From Saururus chinensis (lineage: Eukaryota > Streptophyta > Magnoliopsida > Piperales > Saururaceae): DNA of 64,000 nt. Each line of letters begins with the position of its first letter. Position 1 is the first letter of the stretch. Positions 4,501-61,648 of this stretch are shown here, in pieces. The stretch lies in NCBI GenBank assembly GCA_035235625.1, contig CP141146.1:15556501-15620500 (forward strand), given 5' to 3'. The notes under the pieces are model-generated. The model was not told the DNA's origin and ran no database searches. It worked only from the letters and a program-made list of their open reading frames with translations. A program made the position numbers and the translations under genes.

Positions 4501-4509
4501 ATTTGTATT

Positions 4510-4790: not shown

Positions 4791-4834
4791 GTATTTATTA
4801 CTTCTAAGAATTATGTAAATAGAAGGACATTTTT

Positions 4835-5300: not shown

Positions 5301-5304
5301 AGTA

Positions 5305-15266: not shown

Positions 15267-15794
<528 letters not shown>

Positions 15795-19640: not shown

Positions 19641-19679
19641 GAGTCTACTTTATAAATTGTGTATTGTCAGTAACAATCC

Positions 19680-20923: not shown

Positions 20924-21711
20924 CTAAAAATAGTAGCTTAAAAATCATACAAGGGTTAGTCCATAAAGTTGAGAGATAAGGAGAAATTAAAATTCCTCTA
21001 GTTAAGTTAAAGAAGGAGAAGCCAAAATTCCCTAATTTTTTCTATTGACCGGAAAACTATTTCAATTGACATTGCCTGCAGGTGCATTCTATACCGCATG
21101 TAATTAAATTTTATAAACAAGAAAACATTTTTTTGTCCCATATAGATCATATTTTCATATATATACTTAATTGATCAGTATATATATTTATAAGTTTTCT
21201 CTTATAATTATTTTAGACGACTTAAAGTGTATACTTAAGTGCCATTAAAAGATTCTTTATGCTTTTTTTTTTCAATTGCAGAAATGTTTGTGCTTTTTAG
21301 TGTGGCCCCCATAGTGAAATATGAAAGAATACGCCTCGCTTTGGTCCATTACAAGATACATGATTTAAATCAGTCACACGATGGCAATTGAAGGTCCACT
21401 CGGCCCATTTACATCATACATTATACTCGAGCTAGGATTCCAACTTTGCAGAGTTGCCTAAAATAGTTTCTTTCCTAAATATTAAAGGCGGCTAGAGTTT
21501 TGCCGCCCTTCCAAAGAATGTGGACGTTGGAAATACGCTAATGAACTTCATCATCCTTGCATGATATATATTAAGAGCGTGATACCAGGGTTGGCCATGT
21601 TTTCTTTCCCAGCACATGTTTGTGTTTCTTATCTTTTAAGCTTGGGGAAGTAATCGGAGGAGCGGTTAGGCAATTACTAGGGTGGAATTTTTGCCCAAGA
21701 GGAAGAACAGG
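20924..21711. other. Upstream region of IWS1-like gene, copy 2
   Basis: Noncoding, nearly the same as 1,269-2,047 with small indels (for example near 21,310-21,345). No separate feature recognised. Confidence 0.4.
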
Positions 21712-23602
21712 ATGGCTGAGAAGGGGGGAGATGGGAACCAGAAATTGGTCAGGTGGCGGCTGAGGTTCCAGGGAGAAGTAATATGCTCTGGTTCATGCTT
21801 CCAAAGTCTAGGTGAATGGGGTACTAATGGACGAAAGGTATTAGGTTCTTTTCTCCTTTTTTTCGTCATAGCTAATAATACCATCAATACTTGCGTCTTG
21901 CTGATTTCAGTGGCCTATTTGACATTGAAGAAGTTGATTATTAGAATTCTTTACTATTTGACATTGAAGGAGTTGATTATTGGTCATTTTTGGTTCACGA
22001 TTCACATCAAAGTAATTGACTAGATTTTTGATGACTTGGTTTAATGAATCCGTACTCTTTTCTGTTGTGTTATACTAAAATTTTGTTACTGTTTACGTAA
22101 AGAACTTCGTGTTATTAATGTTCTTGTAATTATCATCTAATTGGCCTGCTTCTTTGATTAATCGAATTTTAGGTTCAAAATTTTCATTAATCCAACTTGT
22201 TAATTTGGTTCCGATCGTTCTTATTTACTGTTTAACGAGAACGTCAATGATGTTCTAATCCCATGGTCATTCTTTATTTTTCTACTTCCATAACCAACAG
22301 GCAGGGAAGACTAAGATTGTTAGAAATAAGAAGAGGAAGATCCAGAAAACATCAGAAGATGTATCGGTGCAACTCCAAAACACACTGGCTGAGCTTGAAC
22401 TTGCAGCTGACAAAGATGCAGAACTCAACAGGCAGTCCAAGCCCGCCACTATGAAAATAGAGAAGATGCAATTGCTAACTGACCTGCTTTCAAAGTAAGA
22501 TAACATTCTATGGTTCTCTTTCATGTTCTGCTTGCATTACACTTCCTGTTAGTCTTATGCATCTCCTCAATTGTACTGCAGGATGCAACATCAGATAGAA
22601 CTGCTAGATCATAACGTACAAACTATTTTGAGGAAGTGGTTGGAGCCTTTGCCAGATGGAAACTTACCCAATGCAAACATGATAAGCACAATACTTAAGG
22701 CTCTTGCTAAGGTACATGCAGTACGCTTATGAACATGTTTATCCCTTCTTTGATCATATTGCAATTAAACCACATGGTATGGATTATTTTACATGTTTGC
22801 TTTTGATGCAGTTTCCAATAGATTTAAAACAGGAGGAGACTCGAAATCATTTCAAAATCAGTGGTCTTGGAAAGGTATGCTTAAGTTGTGGTTTGAAGAC
22901 TAATATTCTTTTGCTTTCTCCCTATTTTTGCCTGTGTTAGTAATGGAAGTTCCTTTTTTTCGATCATGTTCTGTGCAGGCTGTCAAGTTTTTATCAAAAT
23001 CTGACGAAGGGATCAGTCCCAACAGGGAGCTTGCCAAGGATTTGCTCGAGCAATGGGTACTTGAAGCATTTCATATCAACCATATATGTCTAAGGAATTC
23101 ACTACTAATTATAATGACAATAATATATATTGGGAAATGGTCTACAGAAGCAACAAATATTGGGTATAAATATGGGCTTTGTAGAAAGGAGAAGTAACGA
23201 TCAGAGGCCACCAGCTCCAAGGTAGTAGAGTACATAACTTGATTTTCCTACATTGAATAAACTTATACTAGGTGTTATTTGTAAGTTTCAATTGAACCTT
23301 TTTCCTTGATGTAGGTCATCTGTTGGAACTCCTGGTGACTGCACGGCGAAAGCATCATCCCTTCGCGTACAAATGCATCCGATGTGTTCTGACAAAGCTC
23401 CTGCGGGAAACAATTCCTGCCGGACCAAGGTCAGTTTGACTAGTAACATGAAATATAGATCAAGGCTAGTGCATACTTGGTTTGTGACTGATGGTATAAT
23501 ACTCTGTTACGTGGGCAGATCCTTAAAAAGTTCAAGCACATGAAGGCTATGAATGGAAGACGACCGCTGCAAGCAATCAAGATGAGAGCAACCGGAAGAT
23601 AG
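21712..23602 (+). CDS. IWS1: IWS1/SPN1-like transcription elongation factor, copy 2
   Basis: Same eight-exon gene as at 2,048-3,964, also open from ATG to TAG: 21712-21837, 22301-22494, 22582-22711, 22812-22874, 22979-23056, 23148-23221, 23315-23429, 23519-23602 (864 bases, 287 residues). Exon lengths are all identical to copy 1. Differences are mostly substitutions, for example Lys to Glu in FLSKSDEG, and several in exon 7, where the donor reads ACCAAG|GTCAGT and fits the splice consensus better than copy 1. The LW domain (exons 2-5) is intact and should bind SPT6-type partners if expressed. As in copy 1, the long acidic N-terminus of typical plant IWS1 is absent and exon 1 is weakly supported. 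Confidence 0.72.
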
Positions 23603-23849
23603 TTAATTACTCTTGCGCTTAATTAGGATGATCAAGTTTTTCCCCATTTGTGTAAACAATGCTTCTATTATTATTCTATGCATACAGCATGGTATGAGAT
23701 GTATTGCAGCAATTAGTTGAGGTGGCTGCTCAACATGTAAATGATTTGTAGATACAAGTTCATTATGAATTAATATGATTTTTTTTTTAATTTCAATTAA
23801 CATTCATAGTATTTATTACTTCCTAGAATTATGTAAAGAGAGGTCCATT

Positions 23850-25400
23850 ATTTTCATAATTTAAAAATTGCATTAACTTAAAGAGGGATGAGTACAAGAT
23901 TAAGGCAATACAAATAGACTCCCCCTCGTAGGAAACCAAAAGAAACCGCGCCAAATGGTGGACACAAGCACTTTAGGACAAAGGCATAGAAACCAGAAAA
24001 GGAATATAACTACGAAAAAGGAAACATTAGTCACTCCAATTGTCTTCATGGAAGATTCGATCCTACCAGATGAACGTATCCGTAATTACGGCTAGGAATC
24101 GGTTCTGGTCGGGTTGGCCTTGACCCTCACTGAAATCAGGTCGGGTAATGACCCAACCTTATTTTTAAATCGAGTGAAAAATCTAAACCCTAACCTTACT
24201 TGAGTCGGGTCGGGTCAGGTATGCTGGTAACCCTACTTTTTTTCTTCAATTTTTTTGTTTGACTCATATTATATACCTTCTATTTTCTAAGGTCAAACAC
24301 AAATGAAATTAAATACATTATAACATTAATTTGTAATATTTGGTTCTTTGACTTTTGTAGCTGATACTTTTATCGTAGTAGTAATCAACGAAGACCTTAG
24401 AGGTATAATATTGCATTTTCTCTATTCTAAGAGAATGATAACAAAACAGACCTTCAACGTCTGCATGATCAGCCCACTTGGCTTTCGATAACTCACATAC
24501 CAACGCAAAACAGATTAAACATTATTTCTTTAATGGCCAGAGAGAATTATGCATTTCAGCATGTCTTAATTTCAAAATTCTAGTAACTACTTCTCTATAG
24601 CTGCTCATAACTATACCCTCTTTAGCAACTAGTAACACTTAATTACAATTTTCCTCATTCGAAAATTGTCCCTCATCGAGCTTTATTATCCGCCTATTTG
24701 GTTCCATATTATTAACATGTTCTCAATTATGACTGTGAGGCCTTTAACACAGAGCTAAATCTAGTATGTGATGTATCCTTCTGAAGGAGAGAAGATAAGT
24801 AATAAATACAACAAAATATGACATATTTTTATTTTATTCACCACACCTAAAGAATAATAGAAAAGAAATTAAACTATATATAAATTAACAACACTTTGAT
24901 GATATTGTCCTCTGTTATCCCAAAATGGATGTCTACTAAAAAGTAAAATATATGTGATCACACCTATCCTCCAAACATCTTATTCATGCCAAAATTTATG
25001 TTTAAGCACTTCTAGTTTAACATAGTATGCATTAAACAAATACTATAATAATAATATAAAAAATTCTAATAGACTAACAATATAATAATAATGTTCTTTA
25101 TTATTTGTAATTAGGTAAAAGTCAAGTTGTGCGGGTCGGGTTCGACCCGACCCTAAATTCAAAACGGGTCAAAAGCCTAAACCCTGACCCTGACCCTACC
25201 TGTCATCGGGTCAGATTCAGGTCTGGTAAACGGGGCGGGTTGGATTTTCCCAGCACTATCCGTAATACACCGGGTTTGTAAAATGATGATTGTTGCAACA
25301 CTATGAGTATCATTGCATTTGTATAAGTAACATAACGCCAAATAGTTTTGTAGATGATAGTTGCACAGTATAACATTGTGTGGAGTCGAGAATCCATCTC
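23850..25400 (-). repeat. Dispersed repeat R, copy 3, split by hAT element
   Basis: Left part 23,850-24,086 and right part 25,259-25,400 are one copy of repeat R (compare 4,205-4,500) interrupted by the hAT element at 24,087-25,258. The intact site in unit 1 reads GAACGTATCCATAATACACC. Confidence 0.55.
24087..25258. mobile_element. Non-autonomous hAT-type element, 1,172 bp
   Basis: Flanked by a perfect 8-bp duplication TCCGTAAT (24,079-24,086 and 25,259-25,266). Ends are imperfect inverted repeats: left TACGGCTAGGAATC, right reverse complement TAGTGCTGGGAAAATC. Both subterminal regions are rich in GGGTCGGGT and its complement. No transposase is present. 8-bp duplications and TA-G-G ends fit the hAT superfamily. 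Unit 1 shows the empty site near 4,440. Confidence 0.82.
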
Positions 25401-37474: not shown

Positions 37475-38274
37475 GAGTTTTTTCCATATTACCTGGCTGA
37501 AGAAGCCAATATTCCATATTCCTTGGATTTGAAACACAAATGCCATATTACCTGTTTCTGGACAAAATTGGCCTTCGGTTTTAAATAAACTCACTACTCA
37601 TACATATTATAATAAATGAACACTAGAATAGTGTGGCTCTATTCCGGCGGGGAGGATTCATTGCTGGACATTGAAAGCCACCGGCTCAAGGTGCAAGCGG
37701 TGACTCACCGGCGAGTGTCGTTGTTAAGTAAAAACCCATTTTTTTACACTTCAAAAGTTGTCTAGGGCTCCAAAGGCTTCATTTCGATGGATTTGATCAC
37801 CCTTTAACCCCCATTATGGATATGATTGGTATTTGCATACATTACAATAGAGAGGTAGGCAATGATGGCGTATATATAGGTGTAAAGGCACGGTTGATGA
37901 ACATTGATCCGTCGGTGAGGTTCAGCGAGTTACTACTTCAAGTCAAAGAACGACTTGCTGTCAATGGTAATGTGACTTTGAAGTATTTAATTTCATCTTC
38001 CCAATCATCATTTTATATGAATTAAAAGATGATGAGAACTTGCAATCAATGTTTTCCAGTCATAAGTAGGCAAATAAGGAGGTATTATCATTGTATGCCA
38101 AGATGAGAGAGCCCGATAACAGTAACAAATCGCGATTAGTAGAAAAGAACCAGACATTCGATAGAGCTAAATCACTAGTGGTAATGGCTCAACCCAGCTC
38201 TAATTTTGGATTGCAGACGAAAATCAATGATACACAATTCACTTTTGAAACTGTCAGATAACAATGAATTTTAG

Positions 38275-38560
38275 ATTACACGAGATTGTACTTTACGTGT
38301 ACTTGAGCAAACAATATCGAACCTATCGTGTTCAGTTCAAAGAATATCATGTAAAGAAAAAACATGATATTTATAATATCATATAAGTAATGATATGACC
38401 TACATATGAAATATAACACTAATTCTTTTCAGTGTAGATGTAATAACATGAGTTGTAAATATCGTGTTATCGCTAGCACCATACAATTTGTAAATGTGTA
38501 ACCGAATACATGATGTCGAGTTATATCGCATATTGATTAACACGTTAATATCCAAGGCAG
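38275..38560. repeat. Type-1 palindrome array B1
   Basis: Intron 1 of the transposase. Clear half-sites are TATCGTGTTCAG near 38,336, AATATCATGTAAAG, and TCGTGTTAT at 38,462-38,470. Confidence 0.7.
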
Positions 38561-39454
38561 ATTGAGAGAACCGGAAAATTTGAACTCAATAAATCCACAA
38601 CATTCTTCTTACAACAATTTGATGCCTAGACTAGATTAGAAGAAATGTCCCCAATGATGAGTGCGATAAGGACTTTATTTTATACCTATGAACCCTCATA
38701 CAACCCTTGTAATTACAATGGTGAACAATTTGAAGAAGTGTGGGGTGATGATCAATGGAACGAGAATGATATAATTGTCTTTGAAAGTGTGTCTGACCAC
38801 AAAGAATTTGGACATAGCGAGGTACTCTGTAACTTTGATATTGAGGTCAAGGCAGAGTGGGTAACAGTCGATGATCTCAACCTGTTGGAACCGAATATTG
38901 GTGAGGGCGAGCTAATGACTAGCAGTTTGCACGCAAAGGACTACCAAAATCTACTCAAAATGGGTGCACATTTTGTAAGCTTGTTACATTTCAAGAGGGT
39001 TTTGATCGACCTAGTAATAGAGGAGAATTTCACTTATCGTGCTATGGATGAGGACAAGACTACTTACACCATAAATGCTCCAATCAGTCATGTAATTGGT
39101 ACATAAGGGCTTCAAACATAGGATATCATGTGACTGTGATGAGATTAGTGTCTGACCATTCATGTGGAACTCAAAGGAAGTCAACCGACCATCCTCTAGT
39201 ATCACACATTTCGATTGCGAGAAAATGTTATGGGTTGTTTAAAGATTCAATAGACTTACACCAAAAAGCATAGCAAGTTATATTTCCAAGCACTGGGGTA
39301 TAATTGCGAACTACAAGAAATGTTGGCGTGCATGTAAAGAATACTTATGATATTCCTTGAATCGTGTTTGCAGAAACATGACATTTCCATATGGCATGAC
39401 TGCGAACTACAAGAAATGTTGTTGTGCATGATGCTCTTACGGTCGCATTTTCTT

Positions 39455-39610
39455 ACAACATGGCCTATTTACCTATCGTGTTAACATTGACACGATGATT
39501 ACATAGTTCCGGTTTATGGAAACACGACTACTAAAGTTGTCATGTTATCGGGAATATGACGTATTAACTTGTCATATAATCTTTATTAGAATATTAACAA
39601 TTTAATATTT
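39455..39610. repeat. Type-1 palindrome array B2
   Basis: Transposase intron before the DDE core. Near-perfect TCGTGTTAACATTGACACGA at 39,476-39,495; also GTCATGTTATCGGGAATATG. Confidence 0.75.
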
Positions 39611-40589
39611 GATCGTGCAGGTAATGCATTGACTGATTTAATAGATGGGGACCTAGATGAATCTTATCGTAAACTTCCTGCATAAGGAATTCAGATATAA
39701 AGGATTAATCTAGGAAGTGTAGTTGTTCCAATCAAATCATGTGATATTCCCAAACCTATAGGGGGATACGAATTTAAAAGAGTCTTTTGGATGTTTAGGC
39801 CTGTTGCAATAGCTTTCAGAACAACATTTAGGCCATTTCTAATGGTAGATACGACTTTCTTTAAGGGAAAGTATCCTAGTCGGCTATTGATAGCAATTGC
39901 ACTAGACTGGAACAATAGTATGCTATGCATCGCATTTGTAGTTGTTCAGAACGAGTGTGAGAAAACATGGTGATAGTTGCTTGAATTGCTTAGAAAGAAT
40001 CTATTTTCTAATCCTCCAGTCGAGCCGGATACAATTGTTTCTGATGGAATTAAGGGCTTGGAAAATGTTGTTAAGTAGTATTTTCCCTCTACACACCACG
40101 AATATTGCATCCATCACATGGCAGCAAGGATGTTGGATAGATTCAAAGACAACTACCTAAAGAACCAGCTTCATGTGCAGCTGAAACTTTCAGACAGAAC
40201 GTGTATGATGAAACAATTAACAACATTAAAGAACATAATCCTAAAGCATTTGCTTTGCTAAATAAGATAGGTTTAGAGCACTGGGCCAATTTTGCATTTT
40301 TAGGAAAAAGATATGGAACACTCAACTCAAATAGGTCTAAAAGTGTTAATGCAATATTTAAAAAATGAGGTCGTTGCCTATAACTTGGTTAATTGAGCAT
40401 ACAAGGGAGCACACAACAGTACTCTTTGAGAAATGTCAGAGAGATGGGCAAAATATGACTGAAGAGTTAACCCCATTTGCCCATAAACACATGAAAAACA
40501 AAAGAGAAGAAGAAGGAATGTGCATGTATTGATGATATAAATGTATGAATTCCACGTTAACTCGCTATATCACCAAGTAAAATGCACCT

Positions 40590-40760
40590 ACTATCATGTG
40601 TACATTCATATGCTATTTTCCATCTCGTGTAAGTTTAACTATTAAAATAACATGATAGGTGTGATCGTAAGGCTAATGTTGATGGGTCATGTTTTTGATA
40701 ACACGACACTGATCCTTTAACGTGATCTCATTCACACGATATTCATTTAACATGACATTG
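40590..40760. repeat. Type-1 palindrome array B3
   Basis: Intron between DDE core and SWIM finger. TCATGTTTTTGATAACACGA at 40,687-40,706, CACACGATATTC, and AAATAACATGATAG. Confidence 0.7.
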
Positions 40761-41149
40761 TGAATTTGGTCAAACATAGTTGCACATGCGGAAAGTTTTA
40801 GCATCTCAGGCTACCGTGTAAACATGCAATTACGGCAATTGATCACAGACACTTCTATGTGTCTGGCTACTTCGAAATATGGTACTCAAAAGAAACATGT
40901 AGAATGACATATCGAGAGCATTTATACCCAAAGATGGATAGGCACCAGTGGGCATCCACTAGAGTTGTTCCTACATTCAACCCACCTATCCCACTCAAGC
41001 AGCAGGGGTGTCCACAGAAAAACCGAATAGAGTAACAACCAAAGGTTAAAGCCCCACACAAATGTGGAAAATGACATAAGGAAGGGGAACACCGATCGGG
41101 GATGCCTTTTCTACCCCTTTCTTTAGCTGATTGGAGGAAATGTCATTGT

Positions 41150-41420
41150 ACAATCATGTTCTTAGAAACACAGTTTTGTTTATGCATCATGTTATCTATA
41201 GAACAACCTAGTTAAGGATCATGATATCGATAACACGATATTTTGATTTTTTTACTATGCATTCTATCTATATACTTATCCTGTAATCAGTGCCCAAAGG
41301 GTTTGCGTGTTACCAATTACATGATAAGAAAAGACTTGTAATGAATATTATATTTTTCCTCCAATGCATGTCACCAATTACACAATAATGTTAATGTTGT
41401 AATATCAATAACACGACAAT
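41150..41420. repeat. Type-1 palindrome array B4
   Basis: Follows the zinc-knuckle exon. ATCGATAACACGATATT around 41,227-41,243, plus ATCATGTTATCTATAGAACA and ATCAATAACACGAC. Confidence 0.7.
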
Positions 41421-42164
41421 AGTATTAAATAAATGATCAATTTTTGAAGAGTCACTCCATAAGTGTGAATCACCAATTCGTGAGGACACCTCCCCAATTT
41501 TCAACGATGGCCTTAACCCATATTAGCAATTATAAATCCAGACCTCCGGTTAGATCAAGTTACCATTCAGTGTGACTGCCGAGAGACTACCAGGATAATA
41601 CTGGGGACGGATCAAACACCATATGTCTCCATGAGCACAACATGGTCAGCCGTCTGGGCGAAATGCAGGACAATCTGGACATTTAAATGACGCTCGGTCA
41701 TGGTTTCCTCAACCTCTGAGGTGGATCAGTAGACTGGTGTGGTCCTCATCCGTCTATGGGGAGGACTACTCATAATCGTTATTTCAATATCCCGATTGTG
41801 TAATCGCATTTTACCTGGTGGCTCACTAGGTTGTGGTCATAGAGATAGTTAGTGTACAATGTTCTATAGAATCTTCATTTCAATTGTCTATTCTAGTGAC
41901 TGTGTTTTTATCTCTCACTTGCAGTTGGTGGTGGATGAGCGCATGCAAACCCTCAAGGAGACATATGTTGAAACTTACAGACAGAGCGTGGAAGGGGAAC
42001 ATAGATGGTGGTCGATTGATGGATTTTTTATTTTTTTAATATTTTGTAAAGGATACTATCATTGTAATGGACTCATGTTTTGTAAAGAATATTATTAATA
42101 AAAGACAATATGTTTTTCCCTACAACTTTGTTGTGTATCCATTTTTGCAACTTTGTCCTTCTCA

Positions 42165-42640
42165 CGTTATTAGTAACACGATAAACATATAGTTCTGTTC
42201 TTGATGACACAATCATCACACTAATATGGCATGATGTAAATAGACTTCGTCTAATCGGCTACTCAACAAATTGGAAGATCGTATTTTTCCTATCACGATA
42301 TAAATAACGGTCAAATGAACGACCTAAATATATTTTGTCTGATTGAATACAAGACCAACTGGAAGATTGTGATCTTACTAATGCGATGTAAACAACAGTC
42401 GTATGAATGATGACACGACATAGGCCTTGGTGTGTTGTTACTTACACGAGCCGTCACCTAACTTAGACAACTTAATATGGCTTCGTGTTATTAGTAACAC
42501 GACTTTTGTATATGTGTCGTGATGATTACAAGATATGAATCCTACATTAGCCGTACGTACATTAGTTCGTGTTAGCAGTTACACGACTGATGTAAAGTCG
42601 CATAGTTGATTACACGATTGGCTACCACATATTACACTAT
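42165..42640. repeat. Type-1 palindrome array B5 between convergent genes
   Basis: Spacer between the 3' ends of the two MULE genes. Holds the best copy in the window: TCGTGTTATTAGTAACACGA at 42,483-42,502, perfect 8-bp arms around four bases. Also TCGTGTTAGCAGTTACACGA at about 42,568-42,587 and AGTAACACGATAAAC at about 42,170. Confidence 0.8.
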
Positions 42641-43324
42641 ATGGAATTAAATTAAAATAATTGAGTCTACTTTATAAATTGTTTTTTTTTTCAATAACAA
42701 TCCTTAAAAACTAGTAAAACATATTACAATTCATCGCTTTGGGATCGAATTCATGATCGATTCGCCCACAAAGAATTGCCGCACAAATCTGAGGCCTAAC
42801 CAATTTTGTGATCTTCACTTGGGCAGAATCAGGTTGAAGGACTCCTTCGGCTAGCTTTGCTATGTAATATATGAGGAACGCACTATAGTCTTTGTTTGTC
42901 TCTTGATATGGGCATTTGTTAATCTTCGTCATTGGCCACTTTGTTGCACCGTTTATGTGAAGGACCCTTTCCATTTCTACAACAACATGTTTTCTAATAT
43001 GGTTGGCCTCTGCAAAGTTGTGATTGTGGTCACCCTTTAGCAGGTTATACTACCTAAACCCCTTCTCCCTGCATTGGGCAATAAGCAAAGAAAAATAGCC
43101 AGTGACGTAGATTGGAATGAAACCACTCACAGTGTTAACATTTAGCCTTTTCATCAAGTTTCCAATGACTTTGGGGAGCATCTCCTCCTTGTCATGTTGT
43201 GTCCCAACATTATAGTACTGCTGGATAGCAAATCTTAAAAAAAAAACAGTTGGGATAAAGCATGGGATATCTAATATTGCGCTCCTTTAGAATTGGCTAA
43301 AGATGTCTATGACATAAAATTATC

Positions 43325-43620
43325 AATAAAATATTAGTGTTAGTGATAACATGATGTACGATACATCGTGTCACTACAAACACGACATGTGAATTAATAG
43401 TGTAACAGATAACACGACATAAAATATGTCGTGTAATCACGAATACGCCAGTTATACATGATAATATCGTCTTAAAATTATCATGTTACTTATACAATGA
43501 TATGTAGATGTTTCGTATTATCAATAAAGTCATAAATAGAAGTGGCCTTTGCCACTTTTCGCCCATCGTGTAATTAATAACACGCTATGTAATGCAACAT
43601 ATGTTCAAGAACACGATGTT
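43325..43620. repeat. Type-1 palindrome array B6
   Basis: Intron of the Ulp1-like gene. TCGTGTAATTAATAACACG at 43,566-43,584, GATAACACGACATA, TGTCGTGTAATCACGA. Ortholog of 665-930 and 20,310-20,610. Confidence 0.75.
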
Positions 43621-44394
43621 TCCTCATTCGTTATGCACTGTTGTCTAAGTAGAGACACATAGTCAATGTGGAGAAGCATCACCATGGGCCATTCCTTGTG
43701 TGGCTGCCCCAAAAAGTCCTAGATGGTCTCCTATTCTTCGCCCTGTAAAATCTCCATGTGGAACACCATCTATAGATCAAGGTAGTTGTGTGGCACCATA
43801 GCGACCTCCTTCTTGTCCTTATGCTACTCAGCATGCTCTTCCACTTCTATCACATGTCGGATACTTTTTCGGAATTCCTTATCAACTGAAGGGGTATTCG
43901 ATATAATGGCACTAATAGAATCAACATTTGAGCCCACCATTTCCGAGGTAAGAGACTTTGCAAAAAATGCCTCTTGTGCAGGGATAATATATGGGGCAGG
44001 GATGGATGCCAATGGAACTTCATCCTCTGGCTTTGCCTTTTGCTCCTCCTTTGCTGGGCACTTCATCTTTGTAATCTTCTCAGCAATATAGCTACTATCC
44101 TCTTAGGCACAGGAGGTAGGAGGGATGCGATGGGGCCAACATCTAAAGCTTTCTGCTTCTTTATCTTCGGCTTCATTTGCTTCAGTGGCACTGCTTCCTC
44201 CTCTCGGCCTTGACCTAATTTTTCCTCCCAGGATTGTACCTTTTCCTCCTCCCAGTATTGAACCACTTCCTCATTAATTTTCCTGAGGAATTTGGTGATT
44301 ATGGTCTTTTCAACCTTTAGACCCTTCTTCTTCTTTGGGGAGCTAGCTTTTGACCCCCTTTTCTCTACATATAACATGTAACAATTTGTATTAG

Positions 44395-44605
44395 TAAATA
44401 CACGACATGCAACCAAATCATATTATTGACATGACATGTCCACCTATCGTATTGAAAATAATACGTAATATATGCGGTTGTGTCATCGATCAAACGTCCA
44501 CTACCATATCATTTTCTTATAAAACGACATTGTATGTTTTCATGTTATCGATGACACGATGACCTACAAATTAACATGATAATAAAAAAGGTCGTGTAAT
44601 AAAAA
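44395..44605. repeat. Type-1 palindrome array B7
   Basis: Intron. TCATGTTATCGATGACACGA at 44,540-44,559; also AATACACGACATGC. Confidence 0.75.
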
Positions 44606-45404
44606 ATATACTTGTGCAAAATGAAATCCTCATCAATAGACTGAGGTACATGTTTTCTTTGCTCTTCACGAGCAGATTGTTGAACAACTTCACTTGATTT
44701 GGAAGCTCTGGCCTTAACCTGAACTGATGTCTCTCCTTCGGTTGTTGGCGGAGGGGTTGCTGCATGTCAGATCTCCAGTTGAGGGGGTACATGCGGCTGC
44801 TCGGCCTCCAGTTCAGGCGGGGGTTGCATTTGTTCTATTAAGCTCATTACCACCTTAAAAGCGTTTTTAACCCTCTGGAGCGCAACTTGCACCGTGTTCA
44901 TGCTCCCACCCCGCTCTCTATACAAGATGGCCTTCTCCAATACAACATCAACGATCCCAGTCATGACATCAACTGGTATGACAAAGTTGTCAATGACGAC
45001 TTTGACGGATTGTAATTTCCCTTACATCTGACCACGATGGGGTTGAACATGAACCATTTTGCTCTTTATTGTGATATATGTGGCTGCCTTCTTCGCCTTC
45101 AGAGCTTGCATTTGGCCATTGATTAAGTGGGCCTCTTCGGAAATTGGAGTGATTTGCATAACCACTTGTGAATTGACCTTGAGCCGCACGAGTATCTCCT
45201 CGTACCACTTCCTCATCCTTTGATGAGCTAACAGCTTCTTCCTCGCCTTTTCATCAGTCGGGTCAAATTTAGCGGTCTTCTCCACGTCCATCGACATTTG
45301 CGTAAACTCAGGCTACCTCTTATACCTCGGGCTACATGGAGGAGCAGTTGGAGCCCATATAGAGGTATGCTAAAAAAAATCATACCTAGTGAACAAGGCA
45401 AAAC

Positions 45405-45670
45405 AATCTTGTTAATTGTGTTCATATGTCATGTATGTCGTGTCATGGATAACATGTTTATTAAACTCACCGTGTTATCAATTATATAGTACTTTATCAT
45501 CTTACCGATAACACGATATGTACACTTTCGTGTTAAGTAGCATTTTTGCTTAAACACGATACATACACAATTGTGTGATTCATATGACGATAAACCTAAA
45601 GTGTGTATATGATATCATGTTATCAATACCATTTGCATCATACCCATCGTGTTATGGATAATATATTTAC
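45405..45670. repeat. Type-1 palindrome array B8
   Basis: Intron next to the DUF1985-like exon. TAACACGA at 45,509-45,516 followed by TCGTGTTA at 45,528-45,535 (outward-facing pair), and ATCGTGTTATGGATAATA near 45,648. Confidence 0.75.
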
Positions 45671-46439
45671 TTGTAGTACAAATGAAGCCCCAACGAGAAT
45701 TACGGCGGTGGCGGAGAGCTCACCTTGTCTATTTCTGATGTTTCGGTGGTTTGATGATATGCCTCGAATCAATATGTCATGAACGGCCCCAACCCAATTG
45801 TACCTCCCCACAACTGTCATGTCATCTATCAAGTCACACAGGGATGGGGAGATAGATATGTTGCTCTGTATGAATAACACGAGGTCCCCCATGTGTACAA
45901 TGGCACCCCATGCTAAGTCCTCATTGAAGACAATCCGTCTATTGTCTGCCACTTTTTTCAACATTTCTTCAATCAAATTCTTCTCCAATCCCTTCCCTGT
46001 GAAGAACTTTCTGAAGAATTGCCTCTTGCTTTGGGCAGCCTTCCCATCGCCACTATCCAACTTCAATGGTTTCCCTTTAACACTCAAACTTGTGATCAGT
46101 GTGACTTCTTTGACTGTAAGGTGTAGTATTTTGCCCCGAATGTTGAAAACTTCTTTTGAGTCGTACCAACACTCACCTATTAAAACATCCAGGAGTGGTC
46201 TGGAGGTAATTATTTGCATGCAATCGTATACTGGATAGAACCCAATTTCGTCCAAGATTGCCTTGCATCCCGGCCTCGATTCAACGAGGTCTTTTGTTAG
46301 TCTAAGTCCAGTGGGAAACTGTTACTTCCTAGACCTGGTCTCCTCCCATAGATTATCTTCTTCTTCTTTCTGATGCCTTCACTGATTTTGCCATTTGACT
46401 GTATTCTTGTAGCTCTTTATCTATAAAAGATGTTATACA

Positions 46440-46810
46440 TATGTATATCAACAATGAGTCGTGACCAAAATCAAAGAGTCGTGTTGATTTACATTATGTA
46501 GCTAACGTACAAATACACGCTTAAGTTCCTATATCGTGTTATGGGTACACGATATGATACCTTCTCATAAACGATAGCACAACAATTGAATGTCGGCTTT
46601 CGAGTATCGTGTTATTCATAACATGTTATGTATGCTATGCATACACGATAGGAGGACATCTATATCGTATATTATATTATCGATAATACGATATAGTACA
46701 TATCGTATACTTTATAACATGACCAACTACTGAAGGGATGAAAGTACTAACTATGTCGTGTGTTCCATAACACGATATATGAAACATCGTGTATATGAAT
46801 CTACGATTTA
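46440..46810. repeat. Type-1 palindrome array B9, 5' flank of Ulp1-like gene
   Basis: Upstream of the predicted start codon. TCGTGTTATGGGTACACGA at 46,534-46,552, TATCGTGTTATTCATAACAT near 46,605, TGTCGTGTGTTCCATAACAC near 46,755. This places the motif in the likely promoter of the DUF1985-like gene. Confidence 0.78.
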
Positions 46811-47240
46811 GAGCTAGAGAAAGCCATTATCACTAAAATTGATCCAAGCCAGATTAACCCCTCGATCGGCCGGTGTTTTTTGTCGAAGTTCATTGTTTTA
46901 CTAGGATTGCATCAGTATATGCTCGGACAGAACCTCACTTCACAGCAAAACTCAATTTGGGGAGGAAAATAATAAGATTGCATGTCGGAAAGAAAACGAA
47001 TGTTGCGGTGTTTTTTCGTGTCTCACTTATCGCACTTTGGAAATCGGCTATCGGATTTTGGAATTCACTGGTGAGATTGGTCGGAATCGGAACTCACACT
47101 ACGTTTTCGCTTCTCACTGATTGGACTGTTGAAATTGCCAGTTGGTACGGGTAATAGGTTTACATTATATATAACCCTAACCCAGGGGTATTTTTATCTA
47201 AAATTTATCAATATCGTGTAAGTTCTCGATGATATTTTTT
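46811..47240. other. Subterminal region of MULE B
   Basis: Noncoding sequence between array B9 and the right inverted repeat, with GATCGGCCGG and several ATCGG/CCGAT words. The plus-strand 93-residue frame at 46,873-47,154 has no recognisable family. Confidence 0.4.
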
Positions 47241-47299
47241 TGAAAAATCCAGGAAATATAGAATATTGGCTTCTTCAGCTAGATAATATGGAAAAACTC

Positions 47300-52957: not shown

Positions 52958-53180
52958 AAAAAGTTTTGGATATTTACTAATATCAAAGAGAGATCCTCAA
53001 CTCCAAACTTACCAAGACCAAAAAATAGAGCTTTCGATACTAGTTACAAAAAAGTAAGGAGAAAGTAATTCCTCCTAGAAGAAAAAGTGAGATTTGTACT
53101 CACAAATCTTACAAATTGGTTAAAACAATGTCACCAGAGTAAGAAAATGACAAATAACAGTGGTAACAAAAGCTACTCAT

Positions 53181-53815
53181 TGTTGGTTTTTGACATGATA
53201 TAAAATTTCTGGTGTTGAGCCAATCGATCGCCTTGTTGCCCGATTGATTGCCCCGTTCGATCAGTTATTGCCCCAATCGATCGGCTTAACGGATTTCTGA
53301 AAAAAAAAAAAAAAACCATTTGTGATGATTAGTGCGACGGTTATTAAAACTTAGCCGTTTCGGCTTTGTGGGAGCGTATTATTATCAAAGACCGATGGTA
53401 GAGTAATCTATTCACAGAATGAAAACAGAGAACGTCTCTTCTTCTTCATCGGTCCTTTCTCTGGTTCTCTGAGAAAATTCTGAAAGATCACTCCTTCTGT
53501 ACTCTCTGATTTTCTGAGTCTTTCATTGAGCAATAGAAACCTCTTTGAACGAGATCTAGTCAGTCTGATTGGAAGTGCACCATCATCCTGACAGAGTGGT
53601 TCGTTGTATCTCATGAACAGAACGTGATTCGCCTGTGCACGGAGGGCGGAGTATCTGTTTCAAGGACAGCGTGTAAAGCACCTCAAACCGGGTTCAAATT
53701 TCTTTCTCTCTAGTATTTTATTCATATATTAAGAGATATATGTTTATGTGAGATTGATTACATGATTGTTTGAGAATAGTATTCAATTGCCCTCTTGCAT
53801 GTGACAACCCCAACA
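53181..53815 (+). mobile_element. Copia element, left LTR
   Basis: 635 bp, starts TGTTGGTTTTTGACATG and ends GACAACCCCAACA. Pair of the LTR at 61,016-61,648, similar throughout with scattered differences and small indels, so the insertion is not recent. Contains four ATCGATCG-like words near 53,222-53,285. Confidence 0.92.
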
Positions 53816-53840
53816 ATCTTGAAACAGATAATATTGTTGA

Positions 53841-56800
53841 TTGAATACTACTACAATTATGGGTGTTGACAAATCTCTGAAACCTAAGAAATTTGATGGC
53901 AAGAATTTCATAAGATGGCAGACAAAGATGAAATTTCAGCTGACTCAATTGAATATTTTCTATGTGATTGCCGATGTTGTTGCTGATAAAACTGTATCTT
54001 CGGAATCTGATAAGACTACTAGTTCTTCTGATGTTGGAATTGTTAAGACTCATGATAGTGATAAATTCAAACAAGATGATGAATTGTGTCATGGTCAAAT
54101 TCTTAGTGTTTTAAGCAATGAGTTATATGATCTGCATGTAAACACTAAATCTGCCAAAGAATTATGGGATACCCTTAATAAAAAATTTGGAAAGGAGCAT
54201 GAAGGGGAAGAGAAGTATGTTGTGGGCGAGTACTTTGACTATAAGATGGTTGATAACAAATCTATTAGAGACCAGGTAGTCGAAATACAAAATTTGGTGG
54301 CTAAGATCATTGGGAAAGCCATTCCTGTTAACGAGAGGCTCCAAGTTCCTGCTCTTATTGACAAACTACCACCCTCATGGCAGGATTTCAAAATTAACTT
54401 GAAGCACAAGAGGGATGCAATGTTCGTCAATGACCTTATGGTGGCCATTCAAATTGAAGAGAAACACAGGGGTAAGATGAAAATCTGACAGAGTTCTTCT
54501 TCTGGGGCCAATGATAATGCTCAAGCTAATGTTGTGGAAGGGAAACCTAAGTTTTATGGCAATAAGAAGTCTAAGAATTAGCCTCTCAAACCTGGATCTA
54601 ATATCCAAAAGGACAAGAAGTCAAAAGTTTGCTGGGTCTGTGGGAAACCTAGACACTTTGCAAACAAGTGCAATGAGAAGAAAGGCCAGGACCAGAGTCA
54701 TGGTGGGGCTGCACATTCTACTCAGGCTAATATGGTTACTTTAGATGACAGGTTAGTAATTACTAATTCTGAAATTAACTTGGCATGTGAACCTACTGAT
54801 TGGTGGGTTAATACAGGGGCAACTGTTCACATTGGTGTTGATGTTTTATCTTTTTCTTTCTATCAAGAAGTAAAGGATAGGACAATGACGATGGGGAACT
54901 CCTCTGTAGCTAGAGTTTATGGAGTTGGAAATGTGGACATCCGGTTTAAATTGAGGAACACGCTGACTCTCCATAATGTGTTGCACGTGCCAAGTGTGAG
55001 GAAGAACCTTGTTAGTGGAGTACTTCTTAGTCAAGAGGGATATAAGTTAGTGTTTGAGTCAAATAAAGTTGTAATAACTAGACATAGTACTTTTATTGGT
55101 AAAGGCTATGTGTGTGATGGCCTCTTTAAATTAAATTTTGTTTCTTGTAATAACTCTTTATTTCAAGTTGAAGACTCTTTAATTTGTCATGTTGATTCTT
55201 TTGATATGTGGCATATGAGGCTAGGATATGTGAATTCACAAAGTATTAAGAGAACGATGAATTTTGATTTGATTCCAAAAGTACATGATGAATCTCTTGA
55301 TAAATGTGAAATTTGTATTCAAGCAAAATAACCTAAAAAACCATATAAATCTATTGATAGGTCTTCATGTTTGCTTGATTTAATTCATTCTGATATTTGT
55401 GAGTTGAATGGATTTCTAACTAGGGGTGGTATGAGATATTTCATTACTTTTATTGATGATTACTCTAAATTTTGTCATGTTTACTTTCTTAAATCTAAAG
55501 ACGATGCTTTTGAGAAGTTTAGGATTTATAAGATGGAGGTTGAGAATCAAGCTGAGAGGTGGATCAAGAGACTGAGGTCTGATCGTGGTGGGGAATATTG
55601 TTCTCTTAAATTTTGCAAATTTTGTGAAGATCAAGGAATAATACATGAAACTACAACGCCTTACTCTCCTCAATCTAATGGTGTGGCTGAAAGAAAGAAT
55701 AGAACTTTCATTTACATGATAAATTCTATGCTTTCCTCTTCGGGTTTACCCAAGAATTTATGGGGAGAAGCGATTCTTTCAGCATGTATAATCTTATACC
55801 GTGTGCCTCATAAAGGACAAAATAAAACCCCTTATGAATTAATGAAAGGAAGAAAACCAAGCTTAAAGTTCATTAAGGTTTGGGGATGTCTTGCAAAAGT
55901 AAAAATCCCTAACATGAAGATGGATAAGTTAGGTTCGAAAACTTATGATGCAGTGTTCATTGGTTATGCACAAAATAGCAGAGCTTATTGGTTTTTAGTA
56001 ATTGGGTCTGATAGGCTAGACTATGTACCCAATACTATTAAGGAGTCCGATGATACAATATTCTTTGAGAATGTATTTCCTATGAAGGAAAAGAGTAAGG
56101 CTGTAGTGCATGAAGGTGTTTCATCGTCTTCTATTCCTAGAATGGAAGATTCTGGAACCAATGTGGATGTTAGGAGATCTAAAAGAATCAAAATAGAGAA
56201 GAACTTTGGAGATAACTTTTATACTTTTATGGTGGGGAATGATTATCCTTTGACTTTTAATGAGGCTATGTCATCTAGCGAAGCTCCTTTATGGAAGGAG
56301 GCGGTACAGAGTGAGATGGATTCAATACTTGCACATGGGACGTGGGTTTTAACGAATCTACCTCCATGGTTTAAACCAATTGGGTGCAAGTGGATATTTA
56401 AAAGAAAATATTATTATGATGGATCCATTGAAAAGTACAAAGCTAGATTAGTGGCTAAAGGTTATAGTCAAAAGGAAGGTCAAGATTTCTTTGACACATT
56501 ATCATGTGACCATGATAACTACAATTCGAGTGCTTATTACATTAGCAGGTCATTATAACCTCGAGATCCATCAAATTGATGTAAAAATAGCATTTTTAAA
56601 TGGTGAATTAGAGGAGGAAATTTATATGGAGCAGCCTGAAGGTTTTATAGTCCCCGGTCAAGAAAGAAAAGTATGTAAGTTAGTAAGATCTCTTTATGGT
56701 TTAAAGCAGGCTCCTAAACAATGACATCAAAAGTTTGATGATGTTCTTCTTTCTAATAACTTTGTTGTGTGTACTTCTGATAAATGCTTGTACTAGAAGT

Positions 56801-57788
56801 CTTTTGATCATTCTTTTGTAATGCTATGCTTGTAAGTGGATGATATATTATTGTTTGGTGATAATGTGGATTATATCAATAAGGTTAAGGGTTTCCTTAA
56901 CGAAAATTTTGATATGAAAGATTTGGGTCTTGCCAAGGTTATACTGGGCTTAAAGATTGATAGGACTTCTCAAGGAATAGTTGTGAGTCAATCACACTAT
57001 TTGGAGAAGTTTCTAAAGAAGTATGGATACTTCGATAGAAAACCTGTCAATATGCCATATGACGTGAGTGTAAGACTAAAGAAAAATTGTGGGGAAAGTG
57101 TGTCATAACTTAGATATTCACAGCTGATAGGAAGTTTGAATATCTGGCTAATTGCAGTAGACAGGATATATCCTATGTTGTGGGAAGACTAAGTAGATAC
57201 ACTAAGAGCCCTAATGAATCTCATTGGATTGCCATTGAGAGAGTGTTCAAATATCTAAACGGAAGTGTAAATTACGGTTTACATTATTCCGGGTTCCCTG
57301 CTGTATTAGAAGGATACAGTGATGTAAATTGGATATCAAATTCTGATGAAACCAAGGCCACTAGTGGTTATGTGTTTACACTATGTGGTGGGGCGGTTGC
57401 ATGGAAATCTGTCAAACAAACAGTGATAACAAGATCTACTATGGTTGTAGAGTTGGTAGCTCTTGATAAAACTGGAGGAATGGGGGAATGGCTTAGGGAT
57501 CTTTTAATAGATATACCGTGGTTGAATAAGCCAATTCCTGGAATTTTGATTCACTGTGATAACCAATTAGCTCTTGATAAGGTTAAGAGTAAGAATCATA
57601 ATAAGAGGTCCTCCAGGCATATTGAACTAAGGTACAAAATCTTGCGCAAGTTGACCACCTCCAGAGTCATTACCTTAAGTTTTATACGATCAGCAGTAGA
57701 TAATTTGGCTGATTCGCTTACAAAAGATTTGTCAACAGAGCAAATCCTTAACTCATCAAGGGGAATAAGGCTGAAAGCCTATGATTAA
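53841..57788 (+). pseudogene. Copia gag-pol polyprotein, broken
   Basis: Gag (53,841-54,488) begins with a typical KFDGKNFIRWQTKM segment and ends in a stop. The zinc knuckle CWVCGKPRHFANKC lies at about 54,630-54,672. The protease box reads WWVNTGATVH, with Asn for the catalytic Asp. The integrase (about 55,190-56,000) keeps the HHCC region and the acidic residues (IHSDICE, RSDRGGEY, NGVAERKNRT). RT starts near 56,290; a frameshift near 56,500 breaks it, and a stop replaces the Tyr before VDD at 56,833-56,835. RNase H (57,180-57,788) has GYSDVNW and a changed STMVVEL box. Further stops at 55,329-55,331 and 56,722-56,724. The element cannot move on its own. Confidence 0.9.
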
Positions 57789-58086
57789 GTCATTGTCAGT
57801 AGCAACCCAATCTCTCTAGGTGGAGATCCCACTACAAAGATTCAATGGGTAAAAACAAGATGATGTGTGACTTGGAGAGAGCACTATTAAATATTGTATG
57901 CTCATTCATGTGTTACGATGAGAGTGTTCTTAATGTATATAAAATAGGTTGACAAAAGTCTTAATGAGGTCAAAGCTTATATAGCAGGGTATTGTTATGC
58001 ATATTACCCTTGGAGACTGTCACCTATATAAGTGCCACTGAGGTCACAGTTAAAGAGAATGAGGGCTTGTTCTCTAACGTACAACT
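57789..58086. other. Copia 3' noncoding region, left part
   Basis: Sequence between the RNase H stop and the nested LTR; continues at 60,727-61,015. No coding signal. Confidence 0.5.
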
Positions 58087-60721
58087 TGTCACAGCCGGGG
58101 TTTTCTAAATAACATTTTCGAAGTAAATGCAGCGGAAAATTCGAGTAATAATTTTTTTCTTTCTTCAAGTCAAATCATGCAAACCATCGACTAAAATAAA
58201 CCCCAATCTGTGACAGCTATTTTTCAACATATTGATAATATCAAACCATGAATACTCATAATAGTTGATAGAATTCATTAAATAAAGAGCCAAGTCTCGT
58301 CCATGTGCAAAAAATCTGATAACTAATAAAGAATAACAAATAAAGTATGTAATGGCAACTCTCGTGCCTTATTACAATCTACTGAAATAAAGCAAATCCT
58401 ACTTTGAAGCAATGAGTTCCCGCTCCACAAATCCAGCTACACTGCTACTCCTCCTCTGAGGTACCTGCATCACGAAGATGCATGAGTATACCCACTTATA
58501 CTCAATAGGATCAAACAAGTTTATAAAACCCATCAAGGGACTAAGCTTAGGTTTTGTAATTATCATTCATAAGCCACTAAATTTTTTATTCTAAAGATAT
58601 CTAGCTCAATTAAAACCAAGTCTTTGACCCATTCTCAAAGTATTAAAAGCCTCAATATCAGAGACTAAACCACCAAAGTAACACAAAACTGATGCAGAAG
58701 TTAATCTCTGCAACAACTCTTAATATCAGACTCCAACCTTGGAATAGACTGCTTAACAGCAGCTTGACCCAAACCCTCAGGGCTCTCAATAGCCTGCCAC
58801 GAGTCTGAAGGAATGGATCCCAATTGTGTTCATGGACACAGATTGACAAGAAACACAAGCCTTCCATGATGCTCATGTAACTCCGCTTTTTGTACGCACT
58901 ATATAGTCCTGGGAAGACCTACGGGAGACCCACGGTAAAGACCTTCTGGTCAATACCCAAGCCGTTGTGGCAATGGAGAAGCGTATCGCAATCTACACCA
59001 TTCTCCAACTATGGGAAAAATAAGTCTTTGTAGACTTTTTAGATAAAATTCCAAGGAGCCTAAGACTCTATGGCTCAAGGTTCCACATAAAACAAGCACA
59101 GTCCAAAATAATTTATTTATGTCACATGTTCACTCAAATGAACGAATATGTTCTCACACCGTTCATTAACCCTTAATCACCCCTGAAGGTAAATTAGTAT
59201 ATTTAAAATATTAATGAAGGTACTATTAGTCATTTAAACCCCTCATGCCCCATTGCAGGGTTTTAACTAATTATTTATTATTTTTCACCATTTAAAAAAA
59301 TATGCTAGTAGATGTATTTTAACAAAATATAAGAAATTAAGGTGGTTTGGCCTGAACCGGCCCAATTTCCTGTGAACCAGGCCGGTTCAGGGGTAAATAA
59401 TGGATGGGTCGGACGAACTGCTCCTCGACCCATCGTCTTCCTCACCACGTCCCTGCTGAAACAACAAAAGGCATACCAGAGCAAAGGAAATCCGGCCAGC
59501 TCTCTTCCGCCAGACTTTCCGCCCTGGTCTTGCCGAAAAAATTTCGCCTTGACCCCCCAACCCTTCTGGGCGGTTCTTACAGCACCAAGCGCCACCCCTA
59601 ACTCTCTGTCCTGCTCCCATCCTGTGTACAGGGAGGAAAAGATGCCCTAGTGGTGACCTGATGCTCTTTCGGCAGCCCAAGGCTGCAAGAAAACCGTCGT
59701 TTTCACCCTCCTAGCAACACTACAGAACTGAAAATAATTAATTTACTGTATTAACCTCCCAACTCCACCGGCCGATCCATTCTAAGTGCACCAACAGTGA
59801 AACAGAGACGCTTCTATTTCACTAGTCGGTGAAACAGAGGCTCTCCGACCGGCGAGTCTAAGTTCCGGGCGAACAGTTGCGAAATCAGCAATGCTTCTCC
59901 CGTTAATCCTCCTCCTTGGCTCACTAGGCTTGTCATACTTTTCGCCGTTATAGCAAAATTTGAAACGAACGGTAGCAGAAATTTCTACAGAGGTTTCTCT
60001 CATTCCTCTGCTGCCACGAATAGGCAAGTCTACCCTAGAAGCCAAAGGCAATTCCAGCACTCACCCGGGCCTTGCTGTGACGGAGAAAGACCCCCTTCAT
60101 CAGCATCGGTCAGTGAATGGCCGAGCCATGCTTCTACACTCTTCTTTTTTTATATATATATACAACATCACATTATACTATTACCCACGAGCAAACCAAA
60201 GAGTTCGAATTCAATAATCTCTTACGAGGAACGTAATAGGATCATGTTTGTAGGAAGAAGTAACGATCATGCAATTATATTAAGCAAACTCCCATGTTTT
60301 GGATATTATAAATAAGGATCCTACCTTTCCCGACGGTGTCTTCGTGCACGCTCCTCCTCCTCACCTCCTTTTCCAACGACGAACCTTCTTATCCGGCCAC
60401 CAAAACCTCCAAGCCCTCAGCCTTAATGGCTTTCTCACAGCTTATGAAGAAGGAGATGGAGGCTAGGGTTCTTTTAAGGTGGGTTTAAATAAGAGGAGGG
60501 GAGAAGCCTTGTTCTATATGGAGAAGGTAGTGGTACGTAATGCCAATTACCCCTACGCCAAGTCACCCCTAAGTGGTCCCCACTAGGTGACCCTACTCAA
60601 TTTAAGCTCTTAATAAATAAATAACCCTAACTATGCTAATTCTTCATCAATTAATTCTAAAAAAACATAGAAAATAGCCCAAAAAAATCAAAAAATTACC
60701 TTGAAAATCCTGAATGCTACA
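58087..60721. mobile_element. Solo LTR, gypsy-type family G2, copy 2, nested in copia (2,635 bp)
   Basis: Starts TGTCACAGCCGGGG and ends CTGAATGCTACA, flanked by a perfect 5-bp duplication CAACT (58,082-58,086 and 60,722-60,726). Shares internal blocks with 49,067-51,984. It inserted into the copia element, so it is the younger of the two. Overlapping frames at 59,300-60,060 on both strands are GC-rich LTR sequence without protein homology that I recognise. Confidence 0.88.
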
Positions 60722-60726
60722 CAACT

Positions 60727-61015
60727 CATGAAAAGATACAAGGCGCATGGCTATAAAACGCTACCCCGAATTATCTCGAAAAGTGAGTTATTCTAACTGT
60801 TAGGTTTGTCAAAGCTCTTGCTTTAAGGTTCAAGTTCAAGACTTAGTTCACTTCTAACTTGTGAGAGTGGCGGCTTACCAAACTAGGTGTAGGTTCAAAC
60901 GCTTAAGGTACCTATCGCCAAAAACTTGGAGTACTATTGCTCAATGTCTCATTCATGTGTCTATTGCATTTTTTATGTGTGTTTGAACTAGTTTTATATT
61001 AGGTCATAGTGGGGT
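60727..61015. other. Copia 3' noncoding region, right part
   Basis: Leads to the right LTR; the short purine run AGTGGGG at 61,008-61,014 is in the place of a polypurine tract. Confidence 0.45.
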
Positions 61016-61648
61016 TGTTGGTTTTTGATATGATATTAAATTTCTGGTGTTGAGCCGATCGATCACCTTGTCGCCCGATCGATCGCCCCATTCAATCGGT
61101 TGTTGCCCAGATCGATCGGCTTAATGGATTTCTGGAAAAAAAAAGAGAAACAATCGCGATGATTAGCACGACTGTTATTAAAATTTAGCCATTTTGGCTT
61201 CGTGGGAGCGTATTATTATCAAAGACCGACGGGAGAGTAATATATTCACAGAACGAAAACAGAGAACGTCTCTTCTTCTTCATCGGTCCTTTCTTTGGTT
61301 CTCTGAGAAAATTCTGAAAGATCACTCCTTCTATACTCTCTGATTTTCCGAGTCTTTCATTGAGCAATAGAAACCTCTCTGAACGAGATCTAGTCAGTCT
61401 GATTGGAAGTGTGCCATCATCTTGACAAAGTGGTTCATTGTATCTCGAGAACGGAATGCGATTCGCCTGTGCACGAAGGGTGGCGTATCTGTTTCAAGGA
61501 CAGCGTGTAATGCGCCTCGAACCGGGTTCAAATTTATTTATCTCTGGTATTTATTCATATATTAGGAGATATATGTTTATGTGAGATTGATTACATGATT
61601 GTTTGATAATAGTATTCAATTGCCCTCTTGTATGTGACAACCCCAACG
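61016..61648 (+). mobile_element. Copia element, right LTR
   Basis: 633 bp, starts TGTTGGTTTTTGATATG and ends GACAACCCCAACG; the terminal CA has become CG. Followed by the target duplication CTCAT. Confidence 0.92.

Follow-up and report, generated by a model that had tools for sequence, protein, structure and literature searches.

Half-site arrays in a terminal-inverted-repeat MULE of Saururus chinensis as the candidate cis half of a VANC-like anti-silencing system

VANC proteins, which carry a DUF1985 domain and in some cases also an Ulp1 domain, are described in passages of PMC5735166 and PMC13317346 as acting through repeated, family-specific motifs, while passages of PMC5735166 and PMC10398659 report that these DUF1985 proteins bind family-specific words that are dense in noncoding DNA, with loss of methylation. 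The general idea of motif-directed anti-silencing of the VANC type is already published. Sasaki et al. 2022 are said to have found that VANC systems diversified in eudicots through gain and loss of DUF1985, DUF287, Ulp1 and motifs, that specificity is set by the sequence, density and helical periodicity of the motif, and that non-autonomous elements matter as beneficiaries. The locus analyzed here is MULE B, a degenerate Mutator-like element (MULE) with terminal inverted repeats (TIRs), located on the plus strand at positions 37,475-47,299 of a 64,000-nucleotide stretch of Saururus chinensis DNA (C7:15,556,501-15,620,500, hereafter the window). Nine arrays of a short motif are distributed along MULE B, which contains a transposase gene on the plus strand and a DUF1985/Ulp1-like gene on the minus strand. 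Judging from the sequence, these arrays probably (at about 0.6) supply the cis half of an anti-silencing system that is sequence-specific and VANC-like, in which the minus-strand DUF1985/Ulp1-like protein is the predicted binder.

With VANC21/VANDAL21 (Hiun) of Arabidopsis, as portrayed in passages of PMC5735166 and PMC10398659, MULE B shares the layout of a MULE with an extra gene, which bears DUF1985 there and is DUF1985-like under the cut-off here, a short family-specific motif that is dense in noncoding parts (there introns and upstream regions) and rare elsewhere, and arrays that grow by tandem duplication, with related families using other motifs. On the contrary, MULE B is a clear TIR element, unlike that of VANC21. 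Its ends are of the GAGTTTTTTCCATATTACC type and are flanked on both sides by the 9-bp duplication TTGAAGAAA, a target-site duplication being a hallmark of MULEs; ends and duplication together confirm the bounds given in an earlier note made from the letters of this DNA. The aligned cores of the left (37,479-37,546, plus strand) and right (47,229-47,296, minus strand) TIRs form arms of 68 nt that are 82% complementary, unlike the absent or degenerate TIRs typical of VANDALs; as some VANDAL-clade elements have TIRs according to a passage of PMC6446971, these arms are compatible with membership of that clade. Likewise, an Ulp1-domain gene lying in reverse to the transposase, here matched under the gathering score, recalls the KIU (KAONASHI Ulp1) MULEs of passages in PMC2528002 and PMC13317346. 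The former mention ULP-carrying TIR MULEs in melon and grapevine, and the latter, from a 2026 review, have KIU-carrying VANDALs recognising motifs in the noncoding regions of related elements; Arabidopsis KI-MULEs are described, in the portions seen, as non-TIR, unlike B. The motif TAACACGA, around which the arrays are built, was not met in the passages of PMC2528002 and PMC13317346 on KIU/ULP MULEs, and no transposon paper was recognized by title among the 20 literature matches listed, of 603, for the motif letters, which does not by itself prove the motif unreported.

Motif arrays and their helical phasing

The half-site TAACACGA is the top over-represented 8-mer of MULE B, with 17 occurrences on both strands versus 0.41 expected from trinucleotides. 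A 20-bp position matrix, built from seven loci that all lie beyond the window and used with sites called at 6 bits or more, has the consensus TCGTGTTATCGATAACACGA, containing three CpGs 8 bp apart. This matrix detects 84 sites in the window versus a mean of 6.8 in ten dinucleotide shuffles: 49 in B, 27 and 7 in two partial copies of its insertion (MULE A and unit 0, described below), and one elsewhere, the density being 4.99 per kb in B versus 0.02 per kb in the remaining 46.8 kb. A family-specific and dense noncoding motif, as in VANC systems, is thus reflected by 83 of the 84 sites lying within MULE copies. The previous claim that essentially none occur outside the element holds for these matrix sites and fails for exact TAACACGA half-sites, 5 of 28 of which lie, isolated, outside the three copies (2457, 13387, 22107, 34908, 36000).

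Grouped by eye, the sites form nine arrays in B, where a lone weak site at 41,776 is left over, five in A and one in unit 0, so that the earlier counts were reproduced with a matrix trained elsewhere. Arrays 1 (38,379-38,513) and 2 (39,362-39,559) are followed by array 3 (40,687-40,739), located between the MULE and SWIM matches of the transposase and possibly exonic, because both flanking matches share one frame. Array 4 (41,154-41,416) is downstream of the transposase matches, and array 5 (42,162-42,617), between the convergent 3' ends of the two genes, holds the best palindrome, TCGTGTTATTAGTAACACGA at 42,483-42,502, confirmed as the copy singled out before. Arrays 6 (43,335-43,585), 7 (44,386-44,611) and 8 (45,438-45,666) precede array 9 (46,563-46,806), upstream of the DUF1985-like open reading frame (ORF). 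None of the 49 sites of B falls in its Pfam-matched coding DNA, and 10% of circular rotations do as well; when the coding set is widened by codon-biased windows, 4 of 49 fall within it, which 4.7% of rotations equal. The absence of sites from coding blocks, as claimed earlier, therefore holds as a description, at a significance that is moderate because of the clustering of sites, with array 3 as a potential exception.

Genome-wide (516 Mb in 11 contigs), the arrangement TCGTGTTA-N4-TAACACGA occurs 167 times versus once for the control, and exactly N4 separates 167 of the 183 inverted pairs found with spacers of 0-30 bp (control 6). The single palindrome of the earlier note is nevertheless too narrow a description, as direct repeats of the half-site, typically at 31-32 bp, outnumber it. 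With spacers of 5-35 bp, there are 1,241 direct pairs versus 64 for the control. Of the first 100 listed, 85 have starts that are 31 or 32 bp apart, and the figure is 39 of 47 if each cluster among those 100 is counted once. Spacers of 36-66 bp give 860 direct pairs versus 47, and the first 100 listed fall at 44-49 (5), 50-53 (11), 60-67 (76) and 71-74 bp (8), none being at 54-59 bp. This 44-74 bp histogram alone fixes no period, because its best period is 12.5 (R 0.68) versus R 0.66 at 10.5. In each of five gene-bearing copies, by contrast, neighbouring sites taken element by element lie on one face of the helix at a period of 10.5 bp, namely in B (R 0.74, n=39) and in its relatives L036 (0.75, n=39), L037 (0.90, n=25), L039 (0.73, n=28) and L049 (0.75, n=32), all four located elsewhere in the genome, and the phase is kept across gaps of more than 40 bp (R 0.64, n=44, p ~1.5e-8 for B, L036, L037 and L039). 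Both site orientations are found in B, together with N4 palindromes, while in a further locus, L043, 27 of 29 sites share one orientation.

Linkers were then compared with the palindromes that they separate. For neighbours 31-32 bp apart in B, L036, L037 and L039, the 11-12-bp linkers are 32% identical, versus 63% for the palindromes and ~27% expected for linkers from composition by hand calculation. Linkers being mostly unrelated while palindromes are alike, the spacing in gene-bearing copies is kept without linker sequence. Some L037 linkers are alike, indicating recent duplication there too, and conserved linkers in L035, L038, L040 and L043 identify young tandem units; the period scan for short elements peaked at 8.0, the lower edge of the scan. 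Tandem-repeat arrays with fast divergence, another trait of VANC systems, are therefore observed as 31-32-bp units whose linkers differ in gene-bearing copies and are alike in short elements.

Conservation of the motif points in the same direction. Of the B sites of at least 8 bits alignable to L049, 29/40 are also sites in L049. When motif columns as found in L049 are examined in comparisons of B with L047 and L048, non-CpG columns differ at 0.168 and 0.200, respectively, versus 0.249 and 0.252 for array linkers, and CpG columns differ at 0.381 and 0.324. The CpG is intact in 446 of 878 half-sites (from 17 stretches, not all independent), and TG or CA replaces it in 369 of the 432 changed ones (85%), a pattern that, read without a neutral CpG control, is consistent with a functional word in which methylated CpGs decayed once the copies had been silenced.

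Slippage and unequal exchange could also generate satellite-like tandem repeats neutrally, with no binder at all, and the 31-bp units with conserved linkers of the short elements, the similar L037 linkers, and the growth of VANC targets by tandem duplication, as stated in a passage of PMC5735166, would all suit such an origin. Considering, however, that (i) spacing and palindrome persist in gene-bearing copies despite mostly unrelated linkers, (ii) gaps above 40 bp remain phased, (iii) columns of the motif other than CpG vary less than linkers do, and (iv) nine separate places in one element hold one word, a neutral origin is very improbable overall; it was rejected for gene-bearing copies, on account of their unrelated linkers and kept phase, and retained for the short elements.

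The family across the genome

Eleven loci were chosen by the motif, nine from the palindrome list (L004, L035-L040, L052, L053) and two from the direct-pair list (L050, L051); L001-L003 fall within L035 and L036, and the palindrome-list loci cover nine places or groups of the 167 palindromes. Homology to the family, in TIRs or in genes, is present at every one of the 11. Both genes are matched by L036, L037 and L039, whereas in L035 B is matched at one end only and the short element L040 is matched over 1.2 kb. Two short elements, L038 (3,986-6,359; 2.4 kb) and L040 (4,244-6,243; 2.0 kb), display both family TIRs, arrays and a target duplication (8/9 bp in the former, 9/9 bp, TTATGTAAA, in the latter), and no gene match was found when looked for in them. 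Control regions taken at round coordinates contain 0-1 TAACACGA in five of six cases, and the sixth, L043, contains 16, in an array adjoining a family TIR. Conversely, the three loci fetched among the 43 transposase matches listed (L047, L048 and L049) all carry arrays, of 20, 27 and 42 sites, and L049 has counterparts of all nine B arrays at matching places, ~25% diverged (matched by eye after an alignment offset). Where looked at, the motif is thus private to a transposable element family and not to one element: the privacy that the earlier note ascribed to this MULE copy extends to gene-bearing relatives and to elements without a gene match alike.

Among the direct-pair loci, L050 (C1:11,623,348-11,623,676) and L051 (C1:9,041,844-9,042,076) present mainly one half-site per 32-bp unit, in a single orientation, beside family transposase sequence. 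Further direct-repeat sub-families are seen on C1, for example at 23,614,395 and 2,845,807, with TAACACGA pairs 51 bp apart and related spacers, and with 34-bp units TAACACGACCTAATACGAG...

A host transcription or chromatin factor might instead own the site, which the family would have amplified as an enhancer, nucleosome-positioning or insulating element. Strict symmetry and helical phasing suit any dimeric binder, this one included; nevertheless, such an origin is improbable in view of the single matrix site in the 46.8 kb of the window that lie outside the MULE copies and of the lack of palindromes outside the family at the 11 loci chosen by the motif. A host site should be found near host genes, which were not scanned for it genome-wide.

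The short elements bear on a third explanation, in which the arrays would bind the element's own transposase for assembly of the transposition complex. The subterminal motifs bound by TnpA in CACTA (En/Spm) elements are short and occur in both orientations, and TnpA also acts on methylation. The likeness to MULE B lies in a short motif present in both orientations within a DNA transposon, and the difference in the superfamily, the transposase, and the internal location of the arrays, between coding blocks. That short elements mobilised in trans retain TIRs and arrays would agree with transposase binding, as would the wide spread of the transposase region in the genome (43 matches scored). On the contrary, arrays are internal rather than concentrated at the ends in full and short elements, sites in L040 spanning 4632-5602 of 4244-6243 and those in L052 lying at 825-2092 between TIR matches at 186 and 2657, and in B they surround the minus-strand gene as much as the transposase. 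Transposase binding is the main rival, weakened by these internal arrays, and must be regarded as unlikely.

Other DUF1985 loci of the genome served as a contrast set, composed of the best 30 of 150 scored matches (957 candidates), each taken as the match plus 1.5 kb on both sides (3.4 kb each). A motif common to all DUF1985 loci was rejected, since TAACACGA occurs in 0/30 of them and one matrix match in 2/30. Many of these loci (L005-L034, e.g. L012:1-1130) show instead arrays of an 8-bp unit, AAAACTRK (AAAACTGG/AAAACTAT), on the same strand and beside the DUF1985 match, which recur in larger units of ~130-170 bp. Should these arrays be noncoding, the DUF1985 group that carries them would possess a separate word, a situation seen in Arabidopsis.

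The transposase and minus-strand genes

Assignment of B to MULEs rests on the transposase gene (plus strand), which, with stops read through, matches the MULE transposase domain at 39,839-40,123 (PF10551, E 5.2e-16) and the SWIM zinc finger at 40,760-40,843 (PF04434, E 4.4e-6). A stretch resembling the MuDR DNA-binding domain precedes them at 38,954-39,073 (PF03108), under the cut-off in B (E 0.012) and just under it in L039 (E 3.2e-5). No codon-position bias was seen for the transposase blocks taken whole in the alignment of B and its relatives, so that the exon borders of this gene rest on domain matches.

The minus-strand gene comprises, as its N-terminal part, the DUF1985-like ORF at 45,641-46,321 (PF09331, E 0.006) and, as its C-terminal part, a broken Ulp1 (Peptidase_C48)-like segment at 42,714-43,334 (PF02902, E 0.025 for the ORF at 42,714-43,049), and is disrupted in B by stops and frame changes. 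Substitutions were evaluated by codon position in an alignment of B with L036, L037, L039 and L047-L049, in which not every relative spans every block. A bias was detected in the four blocks of this gene lying between arrays (p 1e-6, 5e-4, 8e-6 and 6e-7, the first corresponding to 42,618-43,334 and the last to 45,667-46,562), and in none of the nine arrays of B (p 0.06 to 0.90). In each block, variation is highest in the class that corresponds to third codon positions of the ORFs, which suggests that selection acted on the minus-strand gene during divergence of the family.

In the Ulp1-like part, relatives show GHF followed by YNPL or NNPL, and DCGVF of L049 corresponds to DYSAF of B; the cysteine of DCG is the catalytic residue in Ulp1. 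The DUF1985-like ORF had no match in a large protein set, nor the DUF1985-like part among solved structures, where the Ulp1-like part retrieved just SENP5 (E 0.6) and an unrelated chain (E 0.67). No domain family was matched when the entire minus strand of B, or the Ulp1-like stretch in B and in A, was scanned with stops read through, and a structure model of the Ulp1-like part, with a mean pLDDT of 37.9, was not used.

Anti-silencing as the favoured reading, and the surrounding window

Considering that (i) the arrays lie between coding blocks, (ii) their motif is private to the family, (iii) sites are helically phased, (iv) short elements retain arrays without genes, and (v) the minus-strand codons bear the mark of selection, the VANC-like interpretation already put forward in the earlier note remains the best fit. 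An element-encoded protein, most likely the minus-strand DUF1985/Ulp1-like one, would recognise TAACACGA half-sites, arranged either in the two-fold symmetric 20-bp pair or in direct repetition. Since the spacing of sites corresponds to whole turns of the helix (~3, 5, 6 and 8), the bound molecules would be aligned along the noncoding parts on a single face of the DNA, keeping the element free of methylation and allowing its genes, the transposase among them, to be expressed. Short derivatives with TIRs and arrays would be protected, and then mobilised, in trans. The binding, the identity of the binder and the anti-silencing role are all inferred.

Several aspects weigh against this interpretation. 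Both domain assignments of the predicted binder are under the Pfam gathering scores: DUF1985 is matched by two of three members and C48 by three of four, the best E-value among relatives being 4.8e-4 for each. A plant mobile domain (PMD) match in one relative is weak as well (E 0.067 to 0.22), and comparing profiles with the genome's other DUF1985 loci gave no clear result (hhalign E 0.033, probability 1.6%). The residue in place of the Ulp1 cysteine differs between copies, being Cys in L049 and Tyr in B and L048, and the search for intact relatives proposed earlier yielded no intact minus-strand gene among the fetched loci. Regarding the motif, passages of PMC5735166 give VANC21 the word YAGTATTAY in one orientation, and VANC21 and VANC6 motifs without CpG, while the present site combines a palindrome with direct half-sites in both orientations and has three CpGs in 20 bp. 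The depletion of sites in coding DNA is real as a pattern, with significance that is moderate because sites cluster; the phasing of short elements is not independent evidence, owing to their conserved linkers (tandem units); and the transposase remains a candidate binder.

A bolder version, tentative and itself unlikely, envisages a lineage of TIR MULEs with a methylation-reading platform, in which a dimeric protein would bind the 20-bp palindrome only when unmethylated, helically aligned arrays would switch on and off cooperatively, elements composed of TIRs and arrays would be its non-autonomous parasites, and other DUF1985 groups of this genome would use different words. The CpGs within the site permit a test of methylation reading by the binder. 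If the VANC-like reading is true, it would provide a sharply defined target for a plant anti-silencing protein, in terms of exact half-site, spacing and helical phase, in the setting of a TIR MULE with short followers, and a single 20-mer with a single protein would allow a direct test of how transposon proteins recognise and demethylate their own family.

Positions 1-47,000 of the window form a tandem segmental duplication in units of ~20-25 kb with MULE copies inside. MULE A (14,863-20,923, plus strand) shares its 5' flank with B and matches it at ~83% (16,028-20,923 against 39,100-43,940), the match stopping at 43,940 of B, and the further partial copy, unit 0 (1-1,269, plus strand), belongs to a stretch (1-4450) that matches 19,646-24,086 at 94.5%. 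Unit 0, A and B are thus one insertion, duplicated segmentally, and count as one case rather than three independent ones. Farther downstream, a Ty1-copia-like element is located at 53,180-61,647. Its gag match (E 1e-23) lies at 53,841-54,485, and the two copies of a direct repeat (53,180-53,814 and 61,015-61,647; 91%) may correspond to its long terminal repeats.

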